Shown in pieces: positions 1 through 21,115 of a stretch of DNA of 39,045 bases (its first letter is position 1; every line of letters begins with the position of its first letter). Position numbers and translations under genes: made by a program. Source of the DNA: Oscillospiraceae bacterium (lineage in GTDB: Bacteria; Bacillota; Clostridia; Oscillospirales; Oscillospiraceae); NCBI GenBank assembly GCA_017458085.1, contig JAFTGE010000110.1:1-39045 (forward strand), given 5' to 3'. The notes beneath the pieces are model-generated. The model ran no database searches. It had not been told where the DNA came from and saw only the letters and a list, made by a program, of their open reading frames with translations.

Positions 1-1
1 C

Positions 2-2035: not shown

Positions 2036-2047
2036 GGAGGCGACAAC

Positions 2048-3040: not shown

Positions 3041-3049
3041 ACCGCTTCA

Positions 3050-3105: not shown

Positions 3106-3111
3106 GCGGGC

Positions 3112-4536: not shown

Positions 4537-4649
4537 AAAAACCTCTTTTCTTTCCGTGCTGTTCCTGCGCAAAATCCATCAAAGCCGACGCGCAATTCCC
4601 GCGCTTTTCCCCGCGTTTGTCCCTCTGGCTTTTTATATTAGTCTGTTTT

Positions 4650-4667
4650 GGTCTAATTGTAAAGACC
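4650..4667. promoter_or_regulatory. Candidate operator in the divergent regulator/cluster intergenic region
   Basis: The inverted repeat GGTCT-8 nt-AGACC lies in the AT-rich middle of the region between the regulator and the acyl-CoA dehydrogenase. A further GTCT half-site sits at 4641. Position and symmetry suggest a binding site for the adjacent PucR-type protein. This is inference only, since no consensus for this regulator is known to me. Confidence 0.3.
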
Positions 4668-4721
4668 TTCGTTTTTAGAAAATCCCCAAAAGCGGACCTA
4701 CAATAATTAAAAAATTCACGA

Positions 4722-4760
4722 TATAATTTTTGACAGAAACCTGAAGGTTGTACTACTGTA
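4722..4760 (+). promoter_or_regulatory. Candidate promoter(s) for the acyl-CoA cluster
   Basis: A perfect -10 hexamer TATAAT at 4722-4727 lacks a good -35. A perfect -35 hexamer TTGACA at 4730-4735 is followed 18 nt later by only a weak TACTGT. Either arrangement is half-consensus, which would fit an activator-dependent promoter for the gene starting at 4808. The transcription start cannot be fixed from sequence. Confidence 0.35.
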
Positions 4761-4807
4761 TCCGCCGATGCGTCAGCACGGACAATGAACGAAAGAAGGA
4801 GAAGCGC

Positions 4808-5965
4808 ATGTACGAGTTTTCTATGACCGAAGAGCAGCAGCTGCTGCTGGAGAGTATTGACGAGTTCATGGAGAGAGGGAACTACCTGGAGTACTTCAAG
4901 GAGTGCGACCGGGAGCATAAGTACCCCGAGAAGGCCTGCAACGATTACATCGAGGCCGGCTTCCACCTGCTGCCCCTGCCCGAGGAGTACGGCGGCGATA
5001 ATCTGGACCTGGTATCCAACGTGCTGATGACCATGCGGCTGTACGAGCACGGCTGGCCCGCTCTGGCCGTTCCCAGCAGCTTCCTGCAGCTGGACAACAT
5101 TCTGGCCTACGGCAGCGACTGGCAGAAGGAAGCCATCATCACCGAGGCACAGGCCGGCCGCAAGCCCTATACCCTCGGCTTTACCGAGCCCCAGGCCGGT
5201 TCCGACAACAGTGCCATGGCCACCCGTGCCACCCATAAGGACGGCAAGGTCATCATTAACGGCCACAAGACCTTCAACACCGGCGCCACCGTGTCCAAGT
5301 ACATGATGTGCATGGCCCGCGAATATGAAAACGAAAATCCCTACAAGGATATGAGCTGGTATCTCGTTCCCCTGGACGCCCCCGGCGTCAAGATTACGCC
5401 CATCCCCAAGATCGGCTGCCACTGCATGCCCACCTGCGAGGTCCGTCTGGACAATGTCGAGCTGGACGAGAACGCCCTCGTCGGCGTCAAGGGCCGCGGC
5501 TTCTACCAGCTGATGAAGAACTTCGAGACCGAGCGTCTCATGTCCTGCGCCGTCAATGTCGGCCTTGCCAAGTGCGCCTACAATACCGCCGCCGCTTACG
5601 CCGGCCAGCGCGTCCAGTTCGGCGACATCATCGGCAAGAAGCAGATCATCCAGGAAAAGGTCGTTGACATGCGCATCAAGGTCATCACCATGGAAGACTT
5701 CCTGCTCGACTGCGCCTGGCGCAAGATGCAGGGCGAGTCCATGGGCGTGGACATTTCCCTGCTCAAGCGCTACACCGGTAAGGCCGCCTTCGAGGTCATC
5801 GACGACGCCATGCAGATCATGGGCGGCATCGGCTACACCCAGGATTGCATCATCGACCGCCTCTGGCGCGACCAGCGCGGCTTCCGCATCTTCGCCGGCA
5901 GCGAGGAGATCATGGTCCACTCCAGCGCGCGCCAGCTGATCAAGGACGCGGCCGCCAAGAAGTAA
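4808..5965 (+). CDS. Acyl-CoA dehydrogenase, CaiA-like
   Basis: 385 residues. The start MYEFSMTEEQ is chosen because AAGGAG lies 7 nt before this ATG, whereas the longer frame from 4748 has no ribosome site. The architecture is that of flavin acyl-CoA dehydrogenases: N-terminal helices, FTEPQAGSD (FAD/substrate loop, about 125-133), the beta domain, QRVQFG (267-272), MQIMGGIGYT (335-344) and a C-terminal RIFAGSEEI. It resembles CaiA (crotonobetainyl-CoA reductase) in length and in many motifs, including YFKECDRE near the N-terminus. The Glu found before the Gly in the short/medium-chain motif (EGTSE) is Ala363 here, and CaiA also lacks it. It probably works with the FixAB-like pair downstream, as a reductase of a 2,3-unsaturated acyl-CoA or as a dehydrogenase. 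The substrate is unknown. Confidence 0.92.
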   Translation: MYEFSMTEEQQLLLESIDEFMERGNYLEYFKECDREHKYPEKACNDYIEAGFHLLPLPEEYGGDNLDLVSNVLMTMRLYEHGWPALAVPSSFLQLDNILAYGSDWQKEAIITEAQAGRKPYTLGFTEPQAGSDNSAMATRATHKDGKVIINGHKTFNTGATVSKYMMCMAREYENENPYKDMSWYLVPLDAPGVKITPIPKIGCHCMPTCEVRLDNVELDENALVGVKGRGFYQLMKNFETERLMSCAVNVGLAKCAYNTAAAYAGQRVQFGDIIGKKQIIQEKVVDMRIKVITMEDFLLDCAWRKMQGESMGVDISLLKRYTGKAAFEVIDDAMQIMGGIGYTQDCIIDRLWRDQRGFRIFAGSEEIMVHSSARQLIKDAAAKK

Positions 5966-5986
5966 TCCCCCGCACGGTAGATCCGT

Positions 5987-6018
5987 CCCGGCGCCCTTCC
6001 TCACGGGAAGGCGCCGGG
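5987..6018 (+). other. Intercistronic hairpin, dehydrogenase-ligase gap
   Basis: Arms CCCGGCGCC and GGCGCCGGG, with additional pairs after a one-base bulge around the loop TCAC. There is no T-tract, so it is not a standard terminator. It is one of six such hairpins in this gene array. Confidence 0.7.
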
Positions 6019-6050
6019 CATACAGACGGAAAAGGAAGTGGCTTCACGGT

Positions 6051-7595
6051 ATGGATCTGAATGACGTTCTTCTCAGACCCGCCGGGCTGTATCCCGACAA
6101 AACGGCTGTTAAATACCTGAGCAGGCAGCTGAGCTACAGTCAGCTGTACCGCAACGCGTGCCGCACCGGGAATGCCCTGCTTGCCAGCGGCGTTAAGGCC
6201 GGGGACAGCGTGTGCATCGTCTGCCGCAACAGCGTGGAATATGTGGAGGCCATGTTTGCTGTCTCTCTGATCGGCGCGGTGCCCGCGCTGATCAACTGGC
6301 GCCTCGCGCCTCCCGCCATCTATGACATGATTCGGCAGGTCAACGCCCGCGTAGTCTTTATCTCCAATACCGAAGACTGGATCATCCGCTTTCTGCAGGA
6401 GAAGGCCGGCGATGCGCTGCAGCTGATCATCACTCCCCACGACCCGGATCTGGGCGCGGACTATGAAGCGTTTCGCGCCGACGCGCCGGACACGCTGGAG
6501 CCGGTCCGCAAGGATGAGGAGAGCGCCGCGCTGATCATGTTCACCAGCGGTACCACCGGACGCTCCAAGGCAGTGGAGCTTTCCAACCGTTCCATCTCCA
6601 GTCAGGTGCTCCGCTGCGCGGGTAACGGCCGCTGGTATCAGGAGGATGTGTTCCTGTGCCTGTCCCCTCTGTGCCACGCCATCAGCCTGTCGGTCATGGC
6701 GCTGCTGTACATGGGCGGGGAATTGCTGCTCTGCCCGCCGGAATACATCCGCGACTGCGGCATTGTGCTGGATATCATCGAGCGCGAGCATGTGACCAGC
6801 ACCGCGCTGGTGCCCACGGTGATCAACCGTCTGGTCACCTATATGGAAAAACACCACCGCACCAACAACACCGTCAAATACATTCACTACGGCGCTTCCC
6901 CCATGACATGGGAGCTGCTGAGCCGCTGCGCGAAGGTCTTCTCCTGTAAGTTCCATCAGGGCTACGGCATGACCGAGACCTATGGCACCGTCGTCACGCT
7001 GGTGCCGGAGGACCATCTGGATGCGCGGCATCTGCTCTCTGTGGGTCGGCCCGTGGCCGGCAACGAGATCCGGATCGTCGACGAGAAGGGCAACAGCCTG
7101 CCGGCCGGCGCGGTCGGTGAAATCTGCGTCAAGACCCGCTCGGTCATGACCGGGTACATCGGTATGCCGGAGCGCACCGCCGAGGTGCTGACCAACGGCT
7201 GGTATCACACCGGGGATATGGGCTATCTGGACGAGGAGGGTTACCTCTTCCTCAAGGACCGAAAGTGCGACATGATCATCACCGGCGGGGAAAACGTCTT
7301 CCCCCAGGAGGTGGAGCGCTGTATTCAGGAGCTTGCGGACGATGTGGCGGCGGTCTGCGTCGCCGGTATCGAGGACCCGGTCTGGGGCGAGAGTATTGCC
7401 GCCGCCGTGGTGCGTCGGCCCGGCTCCGCCATCAGTGAGCAGCAGATCATGGACCACTGTGTGGAGCGGCTGGGCCGCTATAAGAAGCCCAAGCAGATCC
7501 TGTTTGTGGACGAGCTGCCCACAACGGAGGTCGGCAAGATCTCCCGGGCCAGGGTCCAGGCCCTCTTTACCCAGGATAATCAAAAGCAAGAATAA
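6051..7595 (+). CDS. Acyl-CoA ligase (AMP-forming), CaiC-like
   Basis: 514 residues of the ANL adenylating family. Visible motifs are the P-loop FTSGTTGRSK (about 164-173), GYGMTET, YHTGDMGYLDEEG, KDRKCDMIITGGENVFPQE and the C-terminal catalytic lysine region TEVGKISR. The role is ATP-dependent activation of a carboxylic acid to its CoA thioester. The length and its position after a CaiA-like dehydrogenase match CaiC (carnitine/crotonobetaine-CoA ligase), but the binding pocket cannot be judged by eye. The ATG follows an AAAAGGAAG site at a longish distance. It is 85 nt downstream of the dehydrogenase, a gap that contains a stable hairpin. Confidence 0.93.
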   Translation: MDLNDVLLRPAGLYPDKTAVKYLSRQLSYSQLYRNACRTGNALLASGVKAGDSVCIVCRNSVEYVEAMFAVSLIGAVPALINWRLAPPAIYDMIRQVNARVVFISNTEDWIIRFLQEKAGDALQLIITPHDPDLGADYEAFRADAPDTLEPVRKDEESAALIMFTSGTTGRSKAVELSNRSISSQVLRCAGNGRWYQEDVFLCLSPLCHAISLSVMALLYMGGELLLCPPEYIRDCGIVLDIIEREHVTSTALVPTVINRLVTYMEKHHRTNNTVKYIHYGASPMTWELLSRCAKVFSCKFHQGYGMTETYGTVVTLVPEDHLDARHLLSVGRPVAGNEIRIVDEKGNSLPAGAVGEICVKTRSVMTGYIGMPERTAEVLTNGWYHTGDMGYLDEEGYLFLKDRKCDMIITGGENVFPQEVERCIQELADDVAAVCVAGIEDPVWGESIAAAVVRRPGSAISEQQIMDHCVERLGRYKKPKQILFVDELPTTEVGKISRARVQALFTQDNQKQE

Positions 7596-7614
7596 AGGAA
7601 AAGGATGAACCGTT

Positions 7615-8379
7615 ATGAAAATCGTAGCGTGCTATAAGCTGGTTCCCGATGAGAACCAGATCAGCTTCAAGCAGCAGGGCATGCCCGACCTGTCCGCCTG
7701 CGAGTGGCAGATCGGCCAGTATGACCTCTGCGCCATTGAAGCCGTGGCGCGGATCGCGGAGAAGCAGGACGACTGCCAGCTGATCGCTCTGACCGCGGGC
7801 GCGGACATTGTGGAAAATTCCAAGCTGAAGAAATCCGTCCTCTCCCGCGGCCCGCACGAGATGGTCGCCGTCAAGGACGAGAAGCTCGGCTTTGCCGACA
7901 GCTACGCTGTGGCCAAGGTCCTGGCCGAAGCGGTCGAATCCATCGGGGATGTGTCCCTGGTGGTGTTCGGCGAGGGCTCCGGCGACGTATACGCCCAGCA
8001 GGTCGGCAACCTGACCGGCGCGCTTTTGGGCTGGAACACCCTCAACGCGGTCAGCAGCCTGGAGCTGGTGGACGGCGAGCTTGTGGTGGAGCGCAATCTG
8101 GAGGATTGCACCGAGACGCTCAAGGTGGCTCTGCCCGCGGCCGTCTCCGTGACCAGCAACATCTGCCTGCCGCGCCTGGCCAGCATGAAGGAAATCCTCA
8201 AGGCCGGCAAGAAGCCCAGCACCATCAAGGCCCTGGACGAGCTCAACACCGACGGCGTGAGCCGCGTCGAGACGGTGAGTCTCGCGGCCAAGAGCAAGGC
8301 CCAGCGTGACTGCACCGTTGTCGCGGCCGATGACGAGGGGCTCGAGCGCCTGGCCGCCGAAATTCGGAAGATGATTTGA
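7615..8379 (+). CDS. fixA: FixA-type electron transfer flavoprotein beta subunit (second copy)
   Basis: 254 residues. MKIVACYKLVPDENQI, VLSRGPHEMV, DVYAQQVGNLTG and PRLASMKEILKAGKKP match the FixA protein that accompanies the E. coli carnitine operon far better than the first EtfB at 1247. FixA with FixB delivers electrons to the acyl-CoA dehydrogenase CaiA in that system. AAAGGA precedes the ATG, and the gene is 19 nt after the ligase. The two EtfB copies differ strongly, so they probably serve different flavin partners. Confidence 0.92.
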   Translation: MKIVACYKLVPDENQISFKQQGMPDLSACEWQIGQYDLCAIEAVARIAEKQDDCQLIALTAGADIVENSKLKKSVLSRGPHEMVAVKDEKLGFADSYAVAKVLAEAVESIGDVSLVVFGEGSGDVYAQQVGNLTGALLGWNTLNAVSSLELVDGELVVERNLEDCTETLKVALPAAVSVTSNICLPRLASMKEILKAGKKPSTIKALDELNTDGVSRVETVSLAAKSKAQRDCTVVAADDEGLERLAAEIRKMI

Positions 8380-8389
8380 GGTGACAGAC

Positions 8390-9289
8390 ATGGAGAAATG
8401 CAAGAGCAGTTTTGTAGTCGCCGCCGGTAAGGGCGCCATCCTCGAGCTTGCCGCGGGCGCGGCGCAGTTTGCGGAAAAGGTTTCCCTGGTGGCCCTGGCC
8501 GCGCCGGTTTCCGCCCAGGGGATCGACGCCGTTTATACCCTGGAGGACCCCAATGCTTCCGTGGCCCTGTACGCCAAGGCCATCGTCAAGCTTATCTGTG
8601 AGCAGAAGCCCGAGCTGGTGCTCGTCGAGCAGTCCCGCAACGGCCGTCTGCTGGCCGGTCTGATCGCCGCCGCCTTCGGCACCAGCGTGCAGACCGACGT
8701 GTCCGAGATCGAATACGACGGCGCCTTCGTCACCAAGCGCGCCGGTTACGGCGGCCTGGCCGTGAAGGTGGAGCGCTCCGCCGAAACCGCCGTCATCTGC
8801 GTCTCGTCCGGCAGCTTCCCCGCCGCCGGGGAGGTCCCCTGCGAGGCCCCCGTGGTCCTCAAGGCCGAGGGCGAGGGCATCACCTTCGTGGAAAAGAAGG
8901 AAAAGCTCCAGCAGCGCACCAATCTCAGCGCCGCCCGCCGCGTGGTCTGTGTCGGCCGCGGCATCGGCGATGAGGAGAAGCTCGCCCTGGCCGAGGAGCT
9001 GGCCGGCGTCATCGAGGCCGAGATGGGCTGCACCCGTCCCGTGGCCGAGGAAGACCACCTCATGCCCACCAACCGCTATATCGGCGTCTCCGGCGTGAGC
9101 GTCAAGCCCGAGCTGTACGTGGCCGTGGGCGTCTCCGGCCAGGTTCAGCACACCTCCGGCGTCAGCGCCACCCGCGTGATCGCCATCAACAAGGACGAAC
9201 ACGCGCCCATCTTCAGCGAGTGCGACTTCGGCGTCGTCGGCGAGGCCAAGGACGTGCTGCCGAAGCTGATCGCCCTGCTCAAGGACTGA
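8390..9289 (+). CDS. fixB: FixB-type electron transfer flavoprotein alpha subunit (second copy)
   Basis: About 299 residues from the ATG at 8390, which has GAGGTGA five bases upstream; a GTG at 8381 is the alternative. VVCVGRGIGDEEKLALAEEL, MGCTRPVAE, LYVAVGVSGQVQHTSG and NKDEHAPIF form the EtfA/FixB FAD-binding domain and read very like E. coli FixB. It partners with the FixA just upstream (10 nt gap). Placement within the cluster makes it the likely electron donor or acceptor for the CaiA-like dehydrogenase and possibly for the FabK/NMO-like flavoproteins. Confidence 0.92.
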   Translation: MEKCKSSFVVAAGKGAILELAAGAAQFAEKVSLVALAAPVSAQGIDAVYTLEDPNASVALYAKAIVKLICEQKPELVLVEQSRNGRLLAGLIAAAFGTSVQTDVSEIEYDGAFVTKRAGYGGLAVKVERSAETAVICVSSGSFPAAGEVPCEAPVVLKAEGEGITFVEKKEKLQQRTNLSAARRVVCVGRGIGDEEKLALAEELAGVIEAEMGCTRPVAEEDHLMPTNRYIGVSGVSVKPELYVAVGVSGQVQHTSGVSATRVIAINKDEHAPIFSECDFGVVGEAKDVLPKLIALLKD

Positions 9290-9327
9290 ACGCTAATATT
9301 TTTAAATACAGGAATGGAGGCTGAGAT

Positions 9328-10293
9328 ATGGAAATCAAAACAAGAGTGACCGAGATGCTCGGCATCAAGTACCCGATCATCCAGGGCTGCATGCAGTGGT
9401 TCGCTACCGCCGATCTGGCGGCGGCCGTCTCCAACGCCGGCGGTCTTGGCGTGATCTCTTCCGCGACCTTTAAAACGGCCGAAGATCTGCGCCAGGAGAT
9501 CCGCCGCTGCAAGGAACTGACCGACAAGCCCTTCGCGGTGAATCTGTCGCTGTTCCCCTCCCTGAACCCCGTGGGCTACACCGAGCATATCAAGGTCGCC
9601 GCCGAGGAAGGCGTCAAGATCATTGAGACCGCCGGCCGCGCTCCCACCGAGTACATGGAGCAGCTCAAGGCCGCCAACATGACCGTCATCCACAAGTGCG
9701 TCGCCGTCAAGCACGCGCTCAAGGCCCAGTCCATCGGCTGCGACATGGTCGTCATCGACGGCTATGAGGCTGCCGGTCACATCGGCGAATTCGATACCGC
9801 CACCATGGTTCTGACTCCCCGCGCCGTTGACGCGCTGGACATCCCCGTGATCACCGCCGGCGGCGTCTGCGACGGACGCACCATGGCCGCCGCCCTGATG
9901 CTGGGCGCCGAGGGCGTGTACATGGGTTCCCGTTTCTTCGCCTCTCAGGAATGCCCCGCCACCGCCGAGGTCAAGCAGGCACTCGTCGAAAACTACGCCG
10001 AGCTTGACACCTACATCGGCCTGCGTCCCTACCGCAACTCCACCCGCTTCGTCAAGAACGAGCTGATGCAGAAGGTCGTCGAGCTGGAGAAGGCCCACGA
10101 GCCCTTTGAAACCGTTGCGCCCCTGGTCGCCGGCTTCCGCACCCGCGGCTTTGTCGAGGGTGACCGCGACTTCCAGGACGGCTCTCTCTGCATCGGCGAG
10201 TGCCTGGGCAACATCCACGACGTCCCCACCTGCGCCGAAATCATCGAGCGCACCATCGACGGCTGCATCAAGCAGCTCAACCGCTTTAACTAA
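9328..10293 (+). CDS. FabK/nitronate monooxygenase-like FMN oxidoreductase (paralogue 1)
   Basis: 321 residues forming a TIM-barrel FMN protein of the NMO/enoyl-ACP reductase II family. Motifs are YPIIQGCMQW near the N-terminus, AAAVSNAGGLGVI, the histidine motif GYEAAGH (His151), ITAGGVCDG (176-184) and GAEGVYMGSRF (FMN phosphate binding). GGAGG precedes the ATG. Family members reduce enoyl thioesters (FabK) or oxidise nitronates. In a CoA-thioester cluster, action on an unsaturated acyl-CoA is more plausible than nitroalkane oxidation, but this is inferred from neighbours. The thioesterase gene follows 15 nt later. Confidence 0.85.
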   Translation: MEIKTRVTEMLGIKYPIIQGCMQWFATADLAAAVSNAGGLGVISSATFKTAEDLRQEIRRCKELTDKPFAVNLSLFPSLNPVGYTEHIKVAAEEGVKIIETAGRAPTEYMEQLKAANMTVIHKCVAVKHALKAQSIGCDMVVIDGYEAAGHIGEFDTATMVLTPRAVDALDIPVITAGGVCDGRTMAAALMLGAEGVYMGSRFFASQECPATAEVKQALVENYAELDTYIGLRPYRNSTRFVKNELMQKVVELEKAHEPFETVAPLVAGFRTRGFVEGDRDFQDGSLCIGECLGNIHDVPTCAEIIERTIDGCIKQLNRFN

Positions 10294-10308
10294 AGGGAGG
10301 AATTATCC

Positions 10309-10761
10309 ATGGATGTCTTTGAAGAAAAGAAGCAGTCTTTTATTGAGCACTGCAAGATCCCCTATCTGAAGGTCGCCGGCATCATCCCCGAGGTCGTCGA
10401 GAAGGGCCATGTCCGCTTTGTGATGCCCGTACAGGATCTGCACATGAACCACGTGAACATCGTTTACGCGGGCAGCTTCTTCGTCGTGGCCGAGGCCGCG
10501 GGCGCCACCCTGATCTTCTCCGCCTACGCTCCCGAGCGCAGCTACACCCCGATCATCGCCAACGTCACCATCGACTATCATAAGCCCGCCACCTCCGATC
10601 TCGTGGTCGACATGAGCATCTCCGAGGAGGAGGCCGCCGAGAAGATCGCCAAGATCAACGAGCGCGGCAAGGGCCGTTACCCGCTGGATGTCCCCGTGTG
10701 CGACAAGGAGGGCAACCTCTGCGCCACCGCGCACATTACCTACTACCTGTATGCGAAATGA
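10309..10761 (+). CDS. Hotdog-fold thioesterase-like protein (PaaI/DUF4442 type)
   Basis: 150 residues, the size of single hotdog-domain thioesterases. MNHVNIVYAGSFFVVAEAAG is the helix-bearing part with the usual small-residue pattern, followed by the strands IIANVTIDYHKPATSDL and ATAHITYYLY. The likely role is hydrolysis of an acyl-CoA, either releasing the end product or rescuing CoA from dead-end thioesters. AAGGGAGG lies well placed before the ATG. The stop codon overlaps a 7-bp hairpin (10760-10779) in the gap to the next gene. Substrate and catalytic residue cannot be assigned confidently. Confidence 0.72.
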   Translation: MDVFEEKKQSFIEHCKIPYLKVAGIIPEVVEKGHVRFVMPVQDLHMNHVNIVYAGSFFVVAEAAGATLIFSAYAPERSYTPIIANVTIDYHKPATSDLVVDMSISEEEAAEKIAKINERGKGRYPLDVPVCDKEGNLCATAHITYYLYAK

Positions 10762-10779
10762 TCTGACTCCCCTCAGATC
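10760..10779 (+). other. Intercistronic hairpin, thioesterase-FMN oxidoreductase gap
   Basis: Perfect 7-bp arms GATCTGA and TCAGATC around CTCCCC, overlapping the stop codon of the thioesterase gene. No T-tract follows. Confidence 0.6.
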
Positions 10780-10815
10780 AGGCAGAGATAAATATTAAGA
10801 TAAGGAGACACGAAA

Positions 10816-11817
10816 ATGATTAAAACCAAACTGACCGAGGCCCTTGGTATTGAATACCCGATCGTACAGAGCGGCATGCAGTGGTTGGCCGTTCCCCAGT
10901 TGGCTTCCGCCGTCTCCAACGCCGGCGGCATCGGCACCATCAACCTGACCTGCTGGCCCACGCTGGATGAGTTTGCCGACGCACTGGACGAGATGAATTC
11001 CCTGACCTCCAAGCCCTATATCGTCAACATTTCGCTGGCTCCCTCCCAGCGCGTGACCGACGAGATGATCCGTGACGCCATCAAGCTGTGCGGCGAAAAG
11101 CACGTCGCCGCCATCGAGACCTCCGCCGAGGACCCCCGTCAGTACATGCCCGACATCCGCGCCGCCAAGCTTTTCCATATCCACAAGTGCCCCAACTACA
11201 AGGTCAGCATGTCCATGGAGCGCAAGGGCGTCAACGCCGTCATCATCGCCGGTTACGAGGCGGGCGGCCATCCCTCCGCTGACGGTGTCGGCACCTTCGT
11301 CATCGCCCGCCGCTGCGCTGCGGACATGAAGATTCCCGTGATCGCGGCAGGCGGCTGCGCAGACGGCCACGGTCTGGCCGCTGCCCTGTGCCTGGGCGCC
11401 TCCGGCGTCGCCATGGGTACCCGCTTCGTCAACACCACCGAGTGCCCCATCAGCCACAACCACCAGCAGTGGGTCATCGACCACACGGAGAAGGACACCG
11501 TCCTGGCCCAGCGGACCATCGGCTCCATGATGCGCATTACCAAGAACAACGCCGCAATGCTCGCCAACGAGATCGAGGACCGCGGCCTGCGCATGGGCTA
11601 CACCCCCGAGCAGATCCTCAAGGAGCAGTTCCCGGTCATCAGCGGCAACATGACCCGTCTGGCCTTCCTGTCCGGCGATGTGGGCAGCGCCACCTTCTGC
11701 ACCTCCATGGGCATGGGCCTGATCCACGACGTCAAGTCCGTCAAGGACGTCATCGACGACATGGTCAAGGAAGCCGAGGAAACCCTCGCCGGCTGCAAGG
11801 CCTACTTCGAGGCCTGA
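10816..11817 (+). CDS. FabK/nitronate monooxygenase-like FMN oxidoreductase (paralogue 2)
   Basis: 333 residues, same family as the protein at 9328 but clearly divergent from it. YPIVQSGMQWL, SAVSNAGGIGTIN, the histidine motif GYEAGGH (His152), IAAGGCADG and GASGVAMGTRF are present. TAAGGAGA precedes the ATG. The conserved N-terminus shared by all three copies in this window (KT-LTE-LGI-YPI-Q) suggests duplication and specialisation. It could be an enoyl-CoA reductase, an isomerase-like flavoprotein or a nitronate monooxygenase; context favours the first. Confidence 0.85.
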   Translation: MIKTKLTEALGIEYPIVQSGMQWLAVPQLASAVSNAGGIGTINLTCWPTLDEFADALDEMNSLTSKPYIVNISLAPSQRVTDEMIRDAIKLCGEKHVAAIETSAEDPRQYMPDIRAAKLFHIHKCPNYKVSMSMERKGVNAVIIAGYEAGGHPSADGVGTFVIARRCAADMKIPVIAAGGCADGHGLAAALCLGASGVAMGTRFVNTTECPISHNHQQWVIDHTEKDTVLAQRTIGSMMRITKNNAAMLANEIEDRGLRMGYTPEQILKEQFPVISGNMTRLAFLSGDVGSATFCTSMGMGLIHDVKSVKDVIDDMVKEAEETLAGCKAYFEA

Positions 11818-11831
11818 TCCCCCGCGTAATC

Positions 11832-11853
11832 GGGGTCCGGAGTGCCGGACCCC
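11832..11853 (+). other. Intercistronic hairpin before the CoA-transferase
   Basis: Perfect 9-bp arms GGGGTCCGG and CCGGACCCC around the loop AGTG, followed by ATCCCTG and not by a T-run. A stable RNA stem without terminator character. Confidence 0.72.
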
Positions 11854-11885
11854 ATCCCTGAAAACGAATCATACAAGGAGGACTT

Positions 11886-13136
11886 ATGAGCAATTCTTAC
11901 AAGCCTCTTGAAGGCGTAAAGGTTGTCGAGCTGGCCACCGTTATGGCTGGCCCTTCCTGCGGCAGATATCTGGCCGACTGGGGCGCCGAGGTCATCAAGA
12001 TCGAGACCGAAAAGGGCGACAGCTATCGCAATTATCCCCCCACCATGGGCATCCCCAGCACGCAGGACTGCACCCCGCTGTTTGACTGCGTCAACGCCGG
12101 CAAGCGCGGCATCTCCATCAACATCAAGACCCCCGAGGGCATGGAGGCCATGCACCGTCTGCTGGCCACGGCCGATGTTTTCCTGACCAACAACCGCCCC
12201 AAGGCTCTGGCCAAGAACGGCCTGGACTATGACAGCCTCAAGGACAAGTACCCCGGCCTGATCATGGCGCAGGTTTCCGCCTTCGGTCTGAAGGGACCCC
12301 AGGCCGACGCGCCGGGCCAGGACACCATTGCCTTCTGGGTCAGCACCGGCTTTACCGCCGACATGATGGTCAAGACCGACAACTCCTACCCTGTGTACGG
12401 CTCCTCCGGCACCGGTGACTTTATCACCGGCCTGGGCCTGGCCTTCGCCATCGTCTGCGCCCTGTACAAGAAGAAGGAGACCGGACTGGGCGACTATGTG
12501 GTCAACTCCCTCTACGGCTCCGGCCTGTGGTGCAACAGCAACTACAACATCGGCTGCATGCCCCGCTACAGCTGGACCATGCCCAAGCGCCGCGATAACA
12601 GCAGCCCCGGCTCCAGCCCCTTCCAGTGCGCCGACGGCGAGTGGATCATGAGCACGATCATGGACGTGGACAACCAGTGGCCCAAGTTTGCCAACGCCAT
12701 CGGCCGTCCCGACTGGATCTGCGAGGAGTACGGCACGCTCAAGGCCCAGCGCAAGGACGAGGTCCGCGCCTACCTGATGGCCGAGTGCGAGAAGATCTTC
12801 CTGACCAAGACCTCCGCCGAGTGGGATAAGATCCTCTCCGACTACGACGTGATCCACGACATTCTGGCCCACTACGGCGACTTTGAGCACCGCGAGCAGG
12901 CCCGCGTCAACGACTACGCCTTCGATTACACCTACCCCAACGGCCACGAGACCGTCCTCATCCGTCCGCCTATGACCAGCGAGAAGATGGGTGTTCCCGA
13001 ATTCACGCCCGGTCCTATGAAGGGCGAGCACACCGAGGAAATCCTGGTCGAGCTCGGCTTCTCCCCGGAGGAGATCGCCAAGATGCTGGAGACGCACGCC
13101 GCCTACCAGATCGACAAGAGCCTGTACAACAAGTAA
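11886..13136 (+). CDS. CaiB/BaiF-type (class III) CoA-transferase
   Basis: 416 residues, the normal length for the formyl-CoA/carnitine CoA-transferase family. LEGVKVVELATVMAGPSCGR and YLADWGAEVIKIETEKGDSYR form the N-terminal Rossmann part. Asp178 in GSSGTGDFITGLGL corresponds to the catalytic Asp (Asp169 in formyl-CoA transferase). A C-terminal GEHTEEIL precedes the last helices, as in the family. It moves CoA between two carboxylic acids and so can recycle CoA from product to incoming substrate, saving the ATP spent by the ligase. Start ATG with AAGGAGG upstream. Its presence beside CaiA-, CaiC- and FixAB-like genes is the strongest sign of a carnitine-style pathway. Confidence 0.92.
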   Translation: MSNSYKPLEGVKVVELATVMAGPSCGRYLADWGAEVIKIETEKGDSYRNYPPTMGIPSTQDCTPLFDCVNAGKRGISINIKTPEGMEAMHRLLATADVFLTNNRPKALAKNGLDYDSLKDKYPGLIMAQVSAFGLKGPQADAPGQDTIAFWVSTGFTADMMVKTDNSYPVYGSSGTGDFITGLGLAFAIVCALYKKKETGLGDYVVNSLYGSGLWCNSNYNIGCMPRYSWTMPKRRDNSSPGSSPFQCADGEWIMSTIMDVDNQWPKFANAIGRPDWICEEYGTLKAQRKDEVRAYLMAECEKIFLTKTSAEWDKILSDYDVIHDILAHYGDFEHREQARVNDYAFDYTYPNGHETVLIRPPMTSEKMGVPEFTPGPMKGEHTEEILVELGFSPEEIAKMLETHAAYQIDKSLYNK

Positions 13137-13151
13137 CAGCACATACACCGT

Positions 13152-13187
13152 ATCTTCAATAGAAAGCCTCCGCTTTCTATTGAAGAT
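13152..13187 (+). other. Intercistronic hairpin after the CoA-transferase
   Basis: A perfect 16-bp stem (arm ATCTTCAATAGAAAGC) with loop CTCC, followed by TTGCCCGG. It may slow readthrough or protect the upstream message; the lack of a T-tract argues against a full terminator. It lies in the 203-bp gap before the first GntP gene. That gap also contains a weaker CCTTGT/ACAAGG pairing and no clear promoter. Confidence 0.72.
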
Positions 13188-13339
13188 TTGCCCGGCCTTG
13201 TGAAAGTGAAAACAAAGACAAGGTCAGGCCCCTTACCATCCGGCGTTTTAAAAAGGACCCGTCTCCAGGGAGGGCCGGTTCTTCTTAAACGAATATAAGC
13301 TGGTATACCAAAAAGACTGCTAAGAGAGGAAAAACAGAT

Positions 13340-14677
13340 ATGTCTCCAGAAGTAATTAGCTTAATCGGTATCCTTCTCGCGCTTGCCTTCTACATCTTTG
13401 CCGCCGTTAAGGGTTGGCAGCTGCTGTTTGTGGCAATCTGCGGTACCATCATCGTCGCTATCTTCGGCGGCCTGAACGTCGTTCAGGCGGTCACTTCCAC
13501 CTTCGTCGGCGGCATCACCGGTTTCTGGGGTCGCTTCATGATCATGTTCATCGGCGGCTCTCTGTTTGCCCAGATGATGGCCGACAGCGGTGCGGCTTTC
13601 CGTATTGCCGACGCCCTGTCCGACCTGTGCCGGAAGTCCAAGGACCCCACCACTCAGAAGGTGCTGGCCGTTCTGACCATCCCCATCATCAACTCCATCC
13701 TGACCTACGGCGGCATCACCTCCCTGCTGGTGGTGTTCCTGATGGTCACCATTGCCCGCCGCCTCTTTGAGGAGCTGGACATCCCCTGGAAGCTGTACGG
13801 CTTTGCCGTTCTCGGCTCCGCCACCTTCACCGTCGGCCTGCTGCCCGGCTCTCCCCAGGCGACCAACCTGATCCCCATGAGCTATCTGGGCACTCAGGCT
13901 ACCGCCGGCGCCCTGCTCGGTATCATCGGCGCCGTGGTGCAGATCACCCTGGCCGTTATCTTCCTCGTCTATGAGGTGCGCCGCAACGCCAAGACCGGCG
14001 AGGGCTTCATGCCCACCGGCCAGAATATCGTCAAGGAGATCCTCCCCGCGTTCGATATTCCCAAGACCAACATCATCATCTGCATCCTGCCCTGCATCGT
14101 GCTGCTGCTCAGCCTGAACGTCATGAAGTGGAGCATCGCCACCTCCCTGACCCTCGGCTGCGTCACCTGCTATGTGCTGTTCTTCAAGGAGTTCCAGCGC
14201 AAAAAGTGCATCAAGAAGACCATCGGCGACGGCATCATGCGCGGTATCAGCGTTCTGACCCTGATGAGCTCCTGCTCCGGCTTCGGCGCCGTCATCGGTG
14301 CTGTGCCCGGCTACGCCTTCGTCATCAGCGGCCTGCAGAGCCTGCCCGGCCCCGCCCCCTTCAAGATCTGGCTGGCTGTCAACGTGGCCGCCGGTATCAC
14401 CGGTTCTTCCAGCGGCGGTCTGAGCATCGTGCTCAACAACATGACCGATTACTTCATGAGCCTGGGCATCCCCGCTCCCGCTGTGCACCGTCTGATCAGC
14501 GCCTCCTCCATCGGCCTGGACACCCTGCCCCACAGCTCCGGCGTTGTCAACGCCTGCGCTGTTTCCAAGATGACTCACAAGGAGCTTTACAAGTACTACT
14601 TCATGATCTCCGTTGTGTTCACCAACATCGCAGCTCTGGTCATCGCCGCACTGATCTCCATCGGTGTGTACATCTGA
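13340..14677 (+). CDS. GntP-family organic acid permease (copy 1)
   Basis: 445 residues, almost entirely hydrophobic, with about a dozen predicted membrane segments and short charged loops such as RRNAKTGEG. The pattern TYGGITSLLVVFLMV and LLPGSPQATNLIP, and a second half ending with SSSIGLDTLPHSSGVV, fit the GntP (gluconate permease) family. That family imports small hydroxy acids with protons; some members are annotated as 3-hydroxybutyrate permeases. GAGAGGA precedes the ATG. It replaces the CaiT betaine antiporter that a true carnitine cluster would carry, so it probably imports the pathway's substrate or exports its product. Confidence 0.85.
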   Translation: MSPEVISLIGILLALAFYIFAAVKGWQLLFVAICGTIIVAIFGGLNVVQAVTSTFVGGITGFWGRFMIMFIGGSLFAQMMADSGAAFRIADALSDLCRKSKDPTTQKVLAVLTIPIINSILTYGGITSLLVVFLMVTIARRLFEELDIPWKLYGFAVLGSATFTVGLLPGSPQATNLIPMSYLGTQATAGALLGIIGAVVQITLAVIFLVYEVRRNAKTGEGFMPTGQNIVKEILPAFDIPKTNIIICILPCIVLLLSLNVMKWSIATSLTLGCVTCYVLFFKEFQRKKCIKKTIGDGIMRGISVLTLMSSCSGFGAVIGAVPGYAFVISGLQSLPGPAPFKIWLAVNVAAGITGSSSGGLSIVLNNMTDYFMSLGIPAPAVHRLISASSIGLDTLPHSSGVVNACAVSKMTHKELYKYYFMISVVFTNIAALVIAALISIGVYI

Positions 14678-14761
14678 TTTTCATACGTCCCGGCCGGGTA
14701 CAGACCTCGGGTTCCATTGAACTTCTCCCTGGGGGTCTGTCCCCGAAAGGGCAGCCATCTT

Positions 14762-14793
14762 TCGGAGGAAGCCGGATTCCCGGCTTCCTCCGA
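14762..14793 (+). other. Intercistronic hairpin after GntP copy 1
   Basis: A perfect 14-bp stem (arm TCGGAGGAAGCCGG) around ATTC, followed by TACTAGG. An ACAGACC/GGTCTGT pairing lies just upstream in the same 183-bp gap. No T-tract. Confidence 0.7.
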
Positions 14794-14831
14794 TACTAGG
14801 GCCTGCTTGACAATGACAGCTTGCCCCATTC

Positions 14832-14852
14832 CGAGTTTCGGCAGAAACGGAG
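14832..14852 (+). promoter_or_regulatory. Hairpin overlapping the ribosome site of the crotonase gene
   Basis: GTTTC (14835-14839), loop GGCA and GAAAC (14844-14848), extended by CC/GG, can fold directly over the ACGGAG ribosome site ahead of the TTG start at 14861. It could lower translation of the crotonase relative to its neighbours. This is structural inference only. Confidence 0.3.
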
Positions 14853-14860
14853 CGATTGTT

Positions 14861-15640
14861 TTGGAGTTTAAACATTTTTTACTGACTATTGATGAGGACG
14901 GCATCGCCGTTTTCACAGCCAACCATCCCGAAAAGCTCAACGCCATGGATGCCGATTCCTGGCGGGAGATGATCGCCTTCTTCACCTGGGCGGACACCGC
15001 CGAGGAGGTCAAGGCCATCATCGTGACCGGCGCCGGAGACAAGGCTTTTATCGCCGGCGCGGATATCAACAGCCTGGCAGTCAAGCGCCCGGTCGACTGC
15101 CTCAACGACATCGGCCAGGACGCCAACCGCCTCATCGAAAACTGCTCCAAGCCGGTGGTCTGCGCGGTCAACGGCTACGCCTTCGGCGGCGGCTGTGAGG
15201 TCGCCATCGCCTGCGATTTCCGCATCGTCGCGGAAAACGCCCTCTTTGCCCTGCCTGAGACCGGCCTGGGAATTCTGCCCGGCGCCGGCGGCACCAAACG
15301 CCTGTCCCGTCTGATCGGCCTGGGCCGCGCCAAGGACATGATCCTGCTCGGCACCCAGGTGGACGCGCAGGAGGCCGTGCGCATCGGCCTGGCCAGCAAG
15401 TGCGTACCCCAGGACCAGCTGATGGACGAGGCCCGCCGCGTGTGCAAAAAGCTTCTCAAACGCGGCCCGGTGGCCATTAAGGTCGCCAAGAAGGTGCTCA
15501 ACGCCTCCTTCACCTGCGGCGACGACGTGAGCAGCATGCTCGAATATCTGGCACTCAGCGCCCTGTGCGGCACCGAGGACAAGCAGGAAGGCGTCACCTC
15601 CTTCCTGGAAAAACGAAAACCCAGCTACAAAGGCTTTTGA
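14861..15640 (+). CDS. Enoyl-CoA hydratase/isomerase (crotonase family)
   Basis: 259 residues if translation begins at TTG 14861, which has CGGAG eight bases upstream and gives the normal crotonase length. The longer frame from 14717 runs through hairpin DNA and is unlikely. HPEKLNAMD, FIAGADIN (oxyanion hole), NGYAFGGGCEVAIACDF and PETGLGILPGAGGTKRL are crotonase hallmarks. Both catalytic glutamates of enoyl-CoA hydratase are present (Glu113 and Glu133), so reversible hydration of a 2-enoyl-CoA is expected. It takes the place of CaiD in the cluster but looks more like a standard enoyl-CoA hydratase. It is followed 41 nt later by the third FMN oxidoreductase. Confidence 0.9.
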   Translation: MEFKHFLLTIDEDGIAVFTANHPEKLNAMDADSWREMIAFFTWADTAEEVKAIIVTGAGDKAFIAGADINSLAVKRPVDCLNDIGQDANRLIENCSKPVVCAVNGYAFGGGCEVAIACDFRIVAENALFALPETGLGILPGAGGTKRLSRLIGLGRAKDMILLGTQVDAQEAVRIGLASKCVPQDQLMDEARRVCKKLLKRGPVAIKVAKKVLNASFTCGDDVSSMLEYLALSALCGTEDKQEGVTSFLEKRKPSYKGF

Positions 15641-15681
15641 TCCGCGCTTACAAAACAATACAGATGTAATGGAGTTTTGAC

Positions 15682-16797
15682 ATGATTAAAACGAGACTGA
15701 CGGAACTGGTCGGTATCCAGTACCCTATCATTCAGGCCGGTATGGGCCCCTTCCCCGTAACCAGCCTCTGCATCGCCGCCGCTAACGCGGGCTGCCTGGG
15801 TCTGTGCAGCACCTTTGGCACCCTCTCCCGCAAGAGCAATCCCGTGGTCTTTGAAGACTTTGTCAAGCAGGCTCACGCGGAAATGGATGACGACGACGTC
15901 ACGATTTTTAAGAAAATGTTCACCCGCGTCTTCGAGGAGACGAAGGAATCCGGCGGTATTTTCGGCGCCAACGTCATGGTTTCCGCCGAGGTGCGCGACA
16001 ACGCCGCAAACGTCATGAAGGCCATCAAGGAGCTGCGCGACGGCAATGCCGAGATGCGCGAGCGCTTTAAGGTCCTCGTCACCACCGCGGGCGATCCCAT
16101 GCCCTGGGCCGGCTTTGTCAAGGAGCAGGGCATGATCTGGATGCATGTGTTCCCCGGTGTGCGGACCGCTGCGCGCTGCAAAAAGGCCGGCGTGCAGGTG
16201 CTGATCGCCTCCGGTCACGAGGGCGGCTTCCACACCGCGTGGCAGCCGGTCCACAGCATGACGCTGCTGCCGGACATCGTGGAGAAATTTTCCGACGAGA
16301 ATACCCTGGTCTGCGGCACCGGCGGCTTCTGCGACGGGAAGTCCGTGGCAGCCGCCTTCGCCATGGGCGCCGACGGCGTGCAGATGGGCACCCGCTTCCT
16401 CGCCACCGAGGAGAGCGACTTCTGCGATCTGTGGAAGCAGCTGGTCATCGACTGCAAGGACGGCGGCACCCTCATCGCCCGCGGCTTTGTCGGTCCTGCC
16501 CGCTGGCTGCGCACCGACGCGGCCCAGCAGCACGCCTACAACACCGCCAAGGACGCCCCCGGCTCCTATGTCGGCGTTCCCGACGATTTCAGCAAGATCC
16601 CCCTGGCTCTGCTCGAGGCCGAGCGCAAGGGCGTTGCCGCCACCTATATGGGGGATGTGGAAAACGCCATGGCCGGCGCCGGCGAATGCGCGCAGCGCAT
16701 CGAGGACAAGCCCAAGACCGCCGACATGGTCAAAACGATCATGGCCGACACCGAGGACATCCTCCGCAATCTCAGCAAAAAGTACATCGTCGAGTAA
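15682..16797 (+). CDS. FabK/nitronate monooxygenase-like FMN oxidoreductase (paralogue 3, long form)
   Basis: 371 residues, longer than the two earlier copies because of an insertion of about 40 residues after the first strands (roughly 50-95, including DDDDVTIFKKMFTRVFEE). YPIIQAGMGPF, AAANAGCLGLC, GHEGGFH (His184 aligned to the family histidine), GTGGFCDG and GADGVQMGTRF keep the FMN-binding core. The first motif is GMGPF rather than the M-QW of copies 1 and 2, so its active site differs. A TGGAG site precedes the ATG. Function within the CoA pathway is inferred from position only. Confidence 0.83.
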   Translation: MIKTRLTELVGIQYPIIQAGMGPFPVTSLCIAAANAGCLGLCSTFGTLSRKSNPVVFEDFVKQAHAEMDDDDVTIFKKMFTRVFEETKESGGIFGANVMVSAEVRDNAANVMKAIKELRDGNAEMRERFKVLVTTAGDPMPWAGFVKEQGMIWMHVFPGVRTAARCKKAGVQVLIASGHEGGFHTAWQPVHSMTLLPDIVEKFSDENTLVCGTGGFCDGKSVAAAFAMGADGVQMGTRFLATEESDFCDLWKQLVIDCKDGGTLIARGFVGPARWLRTDAAQQHAYNTAKDAPGSYVGVPDDFSKIPLALLEAERKGVAATYMGDVENAMAGAGECAQRIEDKPKTADMVKTIMADTEDILRNLSKKYIVE

Positions 16798-16827
16798 TAC
16801 GATTCCCGGCGGACAAGGCAATTTTTT

Positions 16828-16853
16828 GGGCGCCTGCGGACATACAGGCGCCC
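16828..16853 (+). other. Intercistronic hairpin before GntP copy 2
   Basis: Perfect 9-bp arms GGGCGCCTG and CAGGCGCCC around an 8-nt loop. The downstream tail ATATTCTTTC is only mildly T-rich, so termination would be weak at most. Confidence 0.62.
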
Positions 16854-16881
16854 ATATTCTTTCAAAAAGGCGGGGAATTGA

Positions 16882-18222
16882 ATGGTATACCTCAGTCTAT
16901 TCGGGATTCTGCTTACGATCGTTTTGTTCGTGATCGCCTGCTTTAAGGGAATTCCGGTGACGGTAAGTTCGGTGGTGCTGATTTTCGTGATCTGGCTCTT
17001 CTCCGCGCTCTGCCCCGGCGGACCCAGCTTCGTGGAAATGGTGGGTATCTTTGGCGGCGGCGTGGGCAACATCATGGAAAAATACCTGCTGCTGTTCATG
17101 GTCAGCGCCCTGTTCGGCAGCATCATCAACACCACAGGCATCGCCTCCGCCCTCGGCCGCGGCTACGAATCGCTGGTCGCGCGGGCTCCACAGGGTGCGC
17201 GCAAGCTGCTGGCCGCGGCTCTGGTGCCGGTGCTCAACGCGCTGTTCATCTACTCCGGCATCAGCGTGTACGTGGTGGTGTTCGCTGTGGTGGCCGTGGC
17301 CCGCGATCTGTTCAAGCGCATGGACATTCCCTGGTACATGTACTCCATGAGCACCATCGGTTCGGCCACCTTCGCCGCCATCTCGCTGCCAGGCTCTCCC
17401 TCGGTGGTCAACCTCGCACCCATCCCCTATACCGGCACAACCACCGCCCCCGCCCCGGTCTTCTCCGCGATCATCACCGCCGAATGTATCATCCTCGGCG
17501 TGCTGTATATGCAGTTTACCCTCAAACGGGCCGAGCGAAGGGGCGAGGGCTTTCTCCCCTCCGGCGCGGAGATCGACAAGCAGGTCTTCGCCGCAGGTGA
17601 GGAGCAGGAGCCGGTGCGTCTGATCTACGCGCTGCCGTTGATCCTGCTCCCCATCGTTTTGATGAACGCCTTCTCCGTCCCTGTGGTGCAGGCCCTGCTG
17701 ATCACCAACCTTGTGCTGCTGATCGCCTACCGCAAACGGCTGCCCCTGCCCCGGATGCGGCAGACCGTGATCACCGGTCTGGAGGCCGGCATCCGGCCCG
17801 CCATGACCCTGGGCCTGATGAGCGGCTTTGCCGCGGTGCTGACGACGGCGCCGGGCTTCGAGCCGGTGATGGACATGCTCTTTGCCCTGCCGCTGCCGGG
17901 GTATCTGAAAATTGTGGTCATGCTGGGCGTGGTCAGCTTCCTGATCGGAAACTTCAATGCCGCCGTCCCGTCCTGCATGGAGATTCTGGGTCCGGCTACG
18001 CTGCTGACCAGCGGCCTGAGCATGGAGATGATCCACCGCATGATCACCATTTCCTCGCTGTTCTGCATCTCCCCGCACAACAGCGGCCTGTGCAACTCTA
18101 TCAGCGTGGCGAAGCTCACCCACCGAAATACCTATCTGCACTACTTCATGATCGGCCCCGGCTTGGGCCTGATCCTGGTTGTCAGCGCCTGTATTCTGAT
18201 CCGTCTGGGGATCGTCTACTGA
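16882..18222 (+). CDS. GntP-family organic acid permease (copy 2)
   Basis: 446 residues, highly hydrophobic, aligned along its whole length with the permease at 13340 (for example YSGISVYVVVFAVVAVARDLFKRMDIPWYMY against the corresponding stretch there) but quite diverged. SLPGSPSVVNLAPIPYTGT and a C-terminal SSLFCISPHNSGLCNS keep the family pattern. AAGGCGGGGAA precedes the ATG. It is the last gene of the plus-strand array and ends at a bidirectional terminator. Having two permeases suggests separate import and export, or substrate and co-substrate, but the sequence does not decide this. Confidence 0.83.
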   Translation: MVYLSLFGILLTIVLFVIACFKGIPVTVSSVVLIFVIWLFSALCPGGPSFVEMVGIFGGGVGNIMEKYLLLFMVSALFGSIINTTGIASALGRGYESLVARAPQGARKLLAAALVPVLNALFIYSGISVYVVVFAVVAVARDLFKRMDIPWYMYSMSTIGSATFAAISLPGSPSVVNLAPIPYTGTTTAPAPVFSAIITAECIILGVLYMQFTLKRAERRGEGFLPSGAEIDKQVFAAGEEQEPVRLIYALPLILLPIVLMNAFSVPVVQALLITNLVLLIAYRKRLPLPRMRQTVITGLEAGIRPAMTLGLMSGFAAVLTTAPGFEPVMDMLFALPLPGYLKIVVMLGVVSFLIGNFNAAVPSCMEILGPATLLTSGLSMEMIHRMITISSLFCISPHNSGLCNSISVAKLTHRNTYLHYFMIGPGLGLILVVSACILIRLGIVY

Positions 18223-18236
18223 TACGCCGATAGGAC

Positions 18237-18270
18237 AAAACCGCCCGTTCCGAAAGAACGGGCGGTTTTA
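18237..18270. terminator. Bidirectional terminator between GntP copy 2 and the MaoC-like gene
   Basis: Arms AAAACCGCCCGTTC and GAACGGGCGGTTTT around CGAAA, with A-tract and T-tract on the two sides. It closes the plus-strand array and the minus-strand pyrR-uraA-maoC group. Confidence 0.93.
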
Positions 18271-18282
18271 TTTCCTGATGCT

Positions 18283-20502: not shown

Positions 20503-20563
20503 TCAATAACCCTCTCTCTGTAGAATTTTCATTGAATCTATAACAAACGGCCTTTGCCGTGTG

Positions 20564-21103: not shown

Positions 21104-21115
21104 GCCGCTTCCTCC

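Follow-up and report, generated by a model that had tools for sequence, protein, structure and literature searches.

Gene content and extent of the array

Twelve codirectional plus-strand genes, here called A-L, occupy positions 4808-18222 of the window, that is, of the whole 39,045-nucleotide stretch analysed (contig G000:C38:1-39045), which belongs to the 2.67 Mb genome of an Oscillospiraceae bacterium assembled in 135 contigs at 93.5% completeness. Domain matches confirmed the gene families that an initial annotation of this DNA had reported there: an acyl-CoA dehydrogenase (A, 4808-5965), an AMP-dependent CoA ligase (B, 6051-7595), the beta and alpha subunits of an electron-transfer flavoprotein (ETF; C, 7615-8379, and D, 8381-9289), three PF03060 flavin mononucleotide (FMN) proteins of the nitronate monooxygenase (NMO) family (E, 9328-10293; G, 10816-11817; K, 15682-16797), a DUF4442/YiiD-C hotdog protein (F, 10309-10761), a class III CoA-transferase (H, 11886-13136), a crotonase (J, 14861-15640) and two permeases (I, 13340-14677; L, 16882-18222). 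Intergenic gaps are 1-85 bases, with the exceptions of 203 bases before I and, with the assumed start of J, 183 bases before J. Because perfect inverted repeats lie 3' of H (16 bp, 13152-13187) and 3' of I (14 bp, 14762-14793), I and J-L may be separate transcripts.

Borders at 4808 and 18222, as originally drawn, contain these genes and are too narrow; judged from gene content, the true span of the array is approximately 1 to 19137. Outside the earlier borders lie a GlcD-type FAD-linked 2-hydroxy-acid dehydrogenase whose 5' end is cut by the contig edge (Q, 11-1174, FAD_binding_4 and FAD-oxidase_C), a second ETF beta subunit of the bifurcating type (EtfB2; R, 1247-2035, PF01012), a second ETF alpha subunit (EtfA2; S, 2048-3040, ETF and ETF_alpha), a PucR-type (HTH_30, PF13556) regulator on the minus strand, divergent from A (P, 3112-4572), and a double-hotdog hydratase 2 (MFE-2/MaoC) on the minus strand, convergent with L (M, 18283-19137).

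Conservation in related genomes

Two further genomes of the genus, G215 and G246, share the core gene order PucR|A-B-C-D-E-F-G, as revealed by the synteny search among relatives that had been proposed with the initial annotation, and the A-G cluster is therefore more than a chance grouping. Identities in the two genomes are 66-68% (A), 51-52% (B), 59-60% (C), 54% (D), 78% (E) and 70% (F); G is 87-88% identical in G246, and a contig break splits the G215 copy of G, whose two end portions are 88-89% identical. GlcD and EtfB2 come after G in both. G246 has a complete EtfA2. In G215 this gene is truncated: PucR and A-G lie on one contig, and a second contig carries the remainder of G, followed by GlcD, EtfB2 and the beginning of EtfA2. 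The same G246 contig also carries H (70%), K (84%) and I (78%), in the order H, two flavin-reductase-like genes, EtfA2, EtfB2, GlcD, G, F, E, D, C, B, A, PucR, a second PucR-type gene, a permease (44-45%), K and the 78% copy of I; of the two genomes, G246 is the one in which H and K were sought. We note that the two flavin-reductase-like proteins between H and EtfA2 in G246 (PF01613; L122, 3859-5271, minus strand) have no counterpart recognised among the window genes examined.

Across the genomes sampled, the array is an accessory and uncommon feature. With A as query at E<=1e-80, 8 of 101 genomes of the genus matched, three of which hold the array (the source genome, G215 and G246); the other five have 45-47% matches in a different cluster. 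The same threshold gave 1 of 394 genomes in the order sample, namely the source genome itself, and E<=1e-90 gave 5 of 398 in the phylum sample, including the source genome, the others at 45-50%. Related arrays occur in [Clostridium] citroniae (L036), Pseudoflavonifractor phocaeensis (L035/L129) and a Lachnospiraceae metagenome-assembled genome (MAG; L034). The P. phocaeensis contig is identical over the 6801 bases compared to G143:C47, from a genome of the same family, which puts P. phocaeensis in that family group; gene counts across loci include some genes twice where loci overlap (G246, G143).

The different cluster of the five congeners (L123-L127, in G289, G202, G241, G272 and G294, some copies being cut by contig ends) encodes a YdiO-type dehydrogenase in 5/5 (51% to Escherichia coli YdiO), a FixC/YdiS-like protein in 4/5 (48-50%), CaiB-like transferases in 4/5 (37-44%) and a FixX-like protein in 1/5, as well as an OYE-type 692-aa protein and an MDMPI_N protein (one of each scanned). 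These clusters are closer to cai/ydi than the window array is, and no CaiT match was found in those stretches.

Dehydrogenase, ligase and transferase

The array had been described as carnitine-style, with CaiA-, CaiC-, FixA-, FixB- and CaiB-like genes and a crotonase making up nearly the complete cai/fix toolkit. The families were correctly named, and at a finer level the likeness to the carnitine genes is superficial. Protein A scores 464 bits with the YdiO model versus 328 bits with the CaiA model, both under cut-off; its identity to the E. coli proteins is 43% for YdiO and 36% for CaiA. In the dehydrogenase tree it falls in a 22-row clade with CaiA and YdiO (100% support in the Shimodaira-Hasegawa-like approximate likelihood ratio test, SH-aLRT), CaiA being on a long branch, and within it in a subclade of six rows comprising A, its congener copies and sequences from two Gracilibacteraceae MAGs. 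All 22 rows of the YdiO/CaiA clade have a helix-G Glu (Glu242 in A) and Ala or Gly at the MCAD base position (Ala363 in A); among the remaining 50 rows, the helix-G Glu is found in 0 and the MCAD Glu in 48. The catalytic base of LCAD and IVD is located in helix G, according to the accessible part of a preprint (PMC10925408). This shared helix-G Glu layout suggests that the acyl substrate of A has a branched or bulky chain, and the same holds for CaiA and YdiO.

The accompanying ETF pair is of the YdiQ/FixA (C) and FixB/YdiR (D) types: the best model for C is YdiQ, and for D it is FixB, then YdiR. FixC had no match at E<=1e-10 in the source genome, in a search that had no positive control and a genome that is 93.5% complete; the same E. 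coli FixC protein matches four congener loci at 48-50% in local comparison. FixX was recognised in none of the array proteins compared and was not searched for genome-wide.

Ligase B is FadD-like, with 454 bits for PRK06187 (cut-off 476) versus 235 bits for the carnitine ligase (CaiC) model (cut-off 651), and its nearest solved chains are FadD5, a fatty-acyl-CoA synthase and a feruloyl-CoA synthetase. Transferase H matches PF02515 with 274 bits, shares 30% identity with E. coli CaiB across 266 residues, and has formyl-CoA and succinate-glutarate CoA-transferases as its best NCBIfam models, both under their cut-offs. In a quick tree of 41 chosen loci and three E. coli references, CaiB lies in an 11-row clade (100% SH-aLRT) and H outside it, grouping with transferases of related arrays within a 46-row clade that includes transferases of Clostridium difficile, Peptostreptococcus and Papillibacter (37-40% identity); those of C. 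difficile and Peptostreptococcus we take to be HadA/FldA. Asp178 of H aligns with Frc Asp169, and Asp is present in 63/63 rows. A role for H as an alpha-methylacyl-CoA racemase was rejected, as His occurs in 0/63 rows at the alignment position presumed to be the racemase site.

The three trees presented here (NMO, dehydrogenase and CaiB families) are quick trees without bootstraps and carry a long-branch warning; exact repeats over residues 40-200 and rows >99.5% identical to the query were dropped beforehand. The dehydrogenase tree has the window protein entered twice and did not use loci L084-L112 as sources.

FMN protein lineages E, G and K

Three FabK/NMO-like flavoproteins and a thioesterase had been noted as additions to the array, and both descriptions held: E, G and K are all above the PF03060 cut-off, and the DUF4442 hotdog domain makes F a probable thioesterase. 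In a tree of 53 PF03060 rows the window proteins fall in three separate groups, of 7 rows for K (two of them from G1152), 11 rows for E (nine genes, two counted twice as G215 and G246 copies from overlapping loci) and 6 rows for G. The family active-site His, which we take to be catalytic, is present in 53/53 rows, a few genes being counted twice.

K matched 5 of 400 family genomes at E<=1e-60 (the source genome, G070, G079, G1052 and G1152) and is also present in G246, outside that count. E and F share a contig with K in all six K-bearing genomes. G, searched for in ten genomes chosen for earlier matches rather than at random, was found in five of the six, with no match in G079 and a copy on another contig in G1152. 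A second K copy in G1152 (73%) has neither E nor F within 20 kb. Lineage E is represented as well in G201 and in a second G215 array, both outside the loci in which K was sought. Among the six K-bearing genomes, identities are 83-84% (K), 77-88% (G), 53-70% (F) and 54-78% (E). The three FMN lineages rank among the best-conserved components of the array, and identifying a substrate for E, G and K would assign a role to lineages kept at these levels across four genus groups (for G, the source group and three of the other genera's groups). Transferases of the non-congener arrays are 29-37% identical to H and their ligases 32-35% to B.

With the FabK model these proteins score 271 (E), 217 (G) and 130 bits (K), all well under its cut-off of 453. 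E and G do match FabK, and the nearest solved chain to E is PA1024 (269 bits versus 199 bits for FabK). PA1024 is called an NADH:quinone oxidoreductase in the title of a dissertation within the reference list of PMC11193025. ScdK of Comamonas testosteroni, which belongs to the YrpB/nitropropane dioxygenase family, is described in PMC13101464 as dehydrogenating a CoA ester, in a pathway that also has a CoA-transferase and MaoC-family and crotonase-like hydratases. By this description ScdK is a precedent for action of the NMO family on CoA esters.

The lineages of E, G and K, with F, might constitute an undescribed CoA-ester enzyme module of anaerobic gut-type bacteria, in which a constant chemistry is retained and the surrounding ligases, transferases, dehydrogenases and carriers are swapped for different acids; we put this forward tentatively, as a proposal that is on balance doubtful. 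G-like proteins (50-51%) are present in [Clostridium] citroniae, P. phocaeensis and the Lachnospiraceae MAG, and E, F and K were not seen in the stretches compared; this and the uneven occurrences of E, G and K given above weigh against E, G and K as a fixed trio.

Further members of these families were observed around the related loci. A fourth NMO lineage, ~40% identical to G, comprises 15 congener rows with 100% support (L143-L157). The second related array of G215 (L165, G215:C56) encodes an E-lineage NMO protein (59%), a crotonase, a G-lineage NMO protein (74%) and a ligase (31%). The G070 array (L192, L194, L195 and L197) also has OYE, SDR and FMN-reductase genes and different carriers, and CaiE-like proteins (36-47%) are encoded near K in G079, G070 and G1152, as if the acid substrate differed.

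Hydratases, permeases and the GlcD-ETF unit

Hydratase J is a crotonase-type enoyl-CoA hydratase (PF00378) whose 307-aa frame has an unmatched N-terminus; its start is a guess, placed at the TTG at 14861. It has two Glu 20 residues apart, a known enoyl-CoA hydratase pattern, and 65-67% identical copies in [Clostridium] citroniae, P. phocaeensis and a Lachnospiraceae MAG. Matches to M at E<=1e-50 were found in 5 of 200 family genomes, the source genome included, the closest (61%) being in P. phocaeensis beside its related array; overall, identity is 60-61% in P. phocaeensis, and a 54-aa stretch where the [Clostridium] citroniae locus ends is 72% identical.

The two permeases had been assigned to GntP, from which small hydroxy acids were proposed as substrates. 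I and L are paralogues (28-29% identity). I scores 21.7 bits with GntP (PF02447) against a cut-off of 22.5 and L has no Pfam family match at E<=0.001. Among twelve aligned permeases, I and L included, 5/12 match GntP and 4/12 match CitMHS at E<=1. From these scores I and L are best called GntP-like, a weak assignment, and because it is weak the argument from GntP to hydroxy acids is weak as well.

A better hint at a 2-hydroxy acid is the unit Q-R-S. With a congener GlcD as query, the source genome gave a 63% match at the window start (11-1171) and a second match of 42% on contig C43. Q is 62-63% identical to the G246 and G215 copies, R is 75-76% identical to those of G215 and G246, and S is 77% identical to that of G246. 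Q itself being cut, the full-length G215 copy was compared with solved structures, and its top Protein Data Bank chain is LctD (249 bits); the top chains for EtfB2 (R) are 4kpu_B, CarD and LctB, all of which we take to be bifurcating ETFs. The layout is that of LctBCD, a GlcD-type subunit adjoining an EtfBA pair of that type. Between Q-R-S and the divergent regulator P, which has divergent copies at 37-38% in G215 and G246, lies a stem-loop with T runs on both sides, a candidate bidirectional terminator (3059-3098, 18-pair stem) from a consensus scan whose total for the region was not above that of shuffles.

Proposed pathway and alternative explanations

The array is best read as an accessory pathway under PucR control that handles an imported organic acid as CoA thioesters, in which oxidation of a 2-hydroxy acid would be paired with reduction of an enoyl-CoA in a redox-balanced fermentation (probability about 0.5). 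A small organic acid would enter via permeases I and L and be converted to its CoA thioester by ligase B with ATP, and later by CoA exchange with the product acyl-CoA through H, as family chemistry and the kept catalytic Asp of H would allow. Hydratases J and M would interconvert hydroxyacyl-CoA and enoyl-CoA, and the YdiO-type dehydrogenase A with its own ETF, C-D, is predicted from clade and gene order to reduce the double bond. The LctBCD-like unit Q-R-S would oxidize a 2-hydroxy acid with NAD+ as acceptor. More speculatively, C-D could receive electrons from NADH rather than quinol, since FixC has no match in the genome, and E, G and K could be NAD(P)H-linked reductases or dehydrogenases within the CoA-ester pathway; F would probably release product or stalled CoA esters. 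The net result would be that one acid is oxidized and an unsaturated CoA ester acts as electron sink. The general proposal of an anaerobic CoA-ester pathway for an acid other than carnitine survives as the best reading, and its electron-sink element fits the model.

Several points weigh against this reading. None of J, L and M was seen on the contig of G246, and these genes may belong to a side branch. The scan of the array genes recognised neither a thiolase nor a 3-hydroxyacyl-CoA dehydrogenase nor a 2-hydroxyacyl-CoA dehydratase, so that the route cannot be drawn in full. The direction of the reactions, oxidation or reduction, cannot be read from sequence, and electron donation to C-D is a guess. 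Assignment of the permeases to a family is weak; when I, L and ten relatives were combined in a profile, it matched no Protein Data Bank chain at E<=1.

An unlikely alternative is a Stickland-like reductive branch of the HadA/FldA kind, leading from a 2-hydroxy acid to 2-hydroxyacyl-CoA, enoyl-CoA and acyl-CoA with the dehydratase encoded elsewhere. The 46-row clade that H shares with C. difficile, Peptostreptococcus and Papillibacter transferases (37-40%) and the presence of a GlcD dehydrogenase within the array suit it, and the genome does hold eight HGD-D dehydratase matches on four other contigs, two each on C124, C54, C25 and C73. However, a dehydratase was recognised neither in the array nor in the congener copies, the acyl-CoA dehydrogenases of had/fld-like loci fall in a different clade with the MCAD-type Glu, and the crotonase, MaoC and NMO set would be left unexplained. 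Also rather improbable, in our view, is that the array degrades or reductively modifies a cyclic or steroid/terpenoid acid, its NMO-like proteins working on double bonds of the ring in the manner of ScdK. The accessible part of the ScdK report (PMC13101464) places this member of the same family beside a CoA-transferase and hydratases of the MaoC and crotonase families, the K-bearing G070 array also has OYE and SDR genes, and the helix-G Glu suits bulky acyl chains; yet the likeness to ScdK is by description and not by sequence, no ring-cleaving gene was recognised, and the transporters encoded beside the arrays belong to small-solute types (several arrays have GntP-like ones, and G070 has Na_sulph_symp, SSF and GntP-like ones).

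Ordinary fatty-acid beta-oxidation or salvage, with the FabK-like genes serving enoyl-ACP reduction, is disfavoured and carries a low probability. The FadD-like ligase B and the matches of E and G to FabK point that way, but E, G and K all score well under the FabK cut-off, E is nearer PA1024, no thiolase was recognised, and the array is rare, A being found at E<=1e-80 in 1/394 order genomes, the source genome itself. Least probable is a divergent carnitine or other betaine pathway with its substrate brought in by another carrier. In outline the gene complement does resemble cai/fix, and A shares a clade with CaiA and YdiO. CaiT and CaiE had been reported missing, and none was recognised among the array proteins; elsewhere in the genome there is one BCCT gene, a point in favour of this reading, but it is 28% identical to CaiT and has no cai-like neighbours within 20 kb. 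Phylogenies against verified carnitine enzymes were built for two of the three proteins named for this purpose: H lies outside the CaiB clade and A, inside the wide CaiA/YdiO clade, is on a separate branch, the ligase being judged by profile scores. The carnitine-specific NCBIfam models for ligase, transferase, hydratase and dehydrogenase are all far under their cut-offs, and the different cluster of five congeners has the nearer YdiO-type gene, with FixC-like proteins in 4/5 and CaiB-like transferases in 4/5, which fall in the CaiB clade for the two genomes put in the tree. Given that A is nearer YdiO, that H falls outside the CaiB clade, that the genome gave no FixC match and that FixX was recognised in none of the array proteins compared, the idea of a nearly complete cai/fix toolkit fails, and a carnitine pathway was rejected on trees, model scores and missing parts (CaiT in the array, FixC). 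The array is probably not for carnitine.

Regulatory signals and flanking genes

Promoter and terminator scans of the region gave totals no higher than in shuffles, and a conserved operator was not found in an alignment of the P-A intergenic region from three genomes inspected by eye. Adjoining the array (19168-21616, minus strand) are NCS2-type (uracil permease-like) and PyrR-like genes, an ordinary pyrimidine pair that looks unrelated, and positions 28501-32491 hold ordinary housekeeping genes for a response regulator, a histidine kinase, an Xaa-Pro peptidase-like protein and elongation factor P.

Relation to known systems

Anaerobic CoA-ester pathways of gut bacteria decide the fate of dietary and host organic acids, and the array, from a bacterium related to gut species, is a candidate for another such pathway. 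It also illustrates that a 'carnitine-like' gene list can mislead. The name nitronate monooxygenase denotes an oxygen-using enzyme, and the FMN proteins so named, which are a hallmark of the array, fit poorly with a host that, from its family, is probably an anaerobe. No paper describing the array was found among titles and the opening parts of abstracts, most subscription journals lying outside the coverage, and the accessible part of the gutSMASH paper (PMC8262752) has nothing on it.

Like the E. coli cai/fix system, the array combines an acyl-CoA dehydrogenase, a ligase, an ETF pair, a class III transferase and a crotonase, but its transferase lies outside the CaiB clade, no CaiT, CaiE, FixC or FixX was recognised in it, and it adds a PucR-type regulator and a second ETF with GlcD. 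Gut bacteria convert carnitine-derived gamma-butyrobetaine to trimethylamine, and the bbu cluster of Emergencia timonensis, as described in the accessible part of PMC8364193, resembles the array in its acyl-CoA dehydrogenase, class III CoA-transferases, thioesterase and anaerobic setting. It differs in having a ferredoxin and a betaine carrier and no NMO-like protein in its six genes, a comparison made by that description and not with the BbuA sequence. The E. coli ydiOQRST/fadK genes are close in that the top-scoring models are YdiO for A, YdiQ for C and FixB, then YdiR, for D, and in the helix-G Glu of A; however, no YdiS/YdiT or YdiF match was found among the array proteins compared. Instead, the window array encodes a class III transferase alongside three NMO-like proteins, permeases and hydratases.

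With the loci of C. difficile and Peptostreptococcus that we take to be HadA/FldA, the array shares the wider transferase clade (H, 37-40%), whereas its acyl-CoA dehydrogenase is in a different clade and no dehydratase was recognised in it. The lactate dehydrogenase-ETF complex LctBCD, presumably that of Acetobacterium woodii, is matched first through LctD by the G215 GlcD copy and through LctB, among the best, by EtfB2, but here the GlcD-ETF gene unit is tied to a CoA-thioester array. Similar in individual genes are the arrays of [Clostridium] citroniae, P. phocaeensis and the Lachnospiraceae MAG (L036, L035/L129 and L034), with J at 65-67%, M at the values given above, H at 54-55%, G at 50-51% and I at 41-42%; unlike the window array, they have several CoA-transferases and dehydrogenases of the MCAD-Glu group, and no E, F or K in the stretches compared. 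The array is of a known kind, exemplified by cai, bbu and had/fld: gene sets for anaerobic CoA-ester metabolism that combine class III transferases with acyl-CoA dehydrogenases and, in many cases, ETFs. What is new here is a transferase outside the carnitine clade, a dehydrogenase on a separate branch, two ETF systems and the NMO-like lineages.

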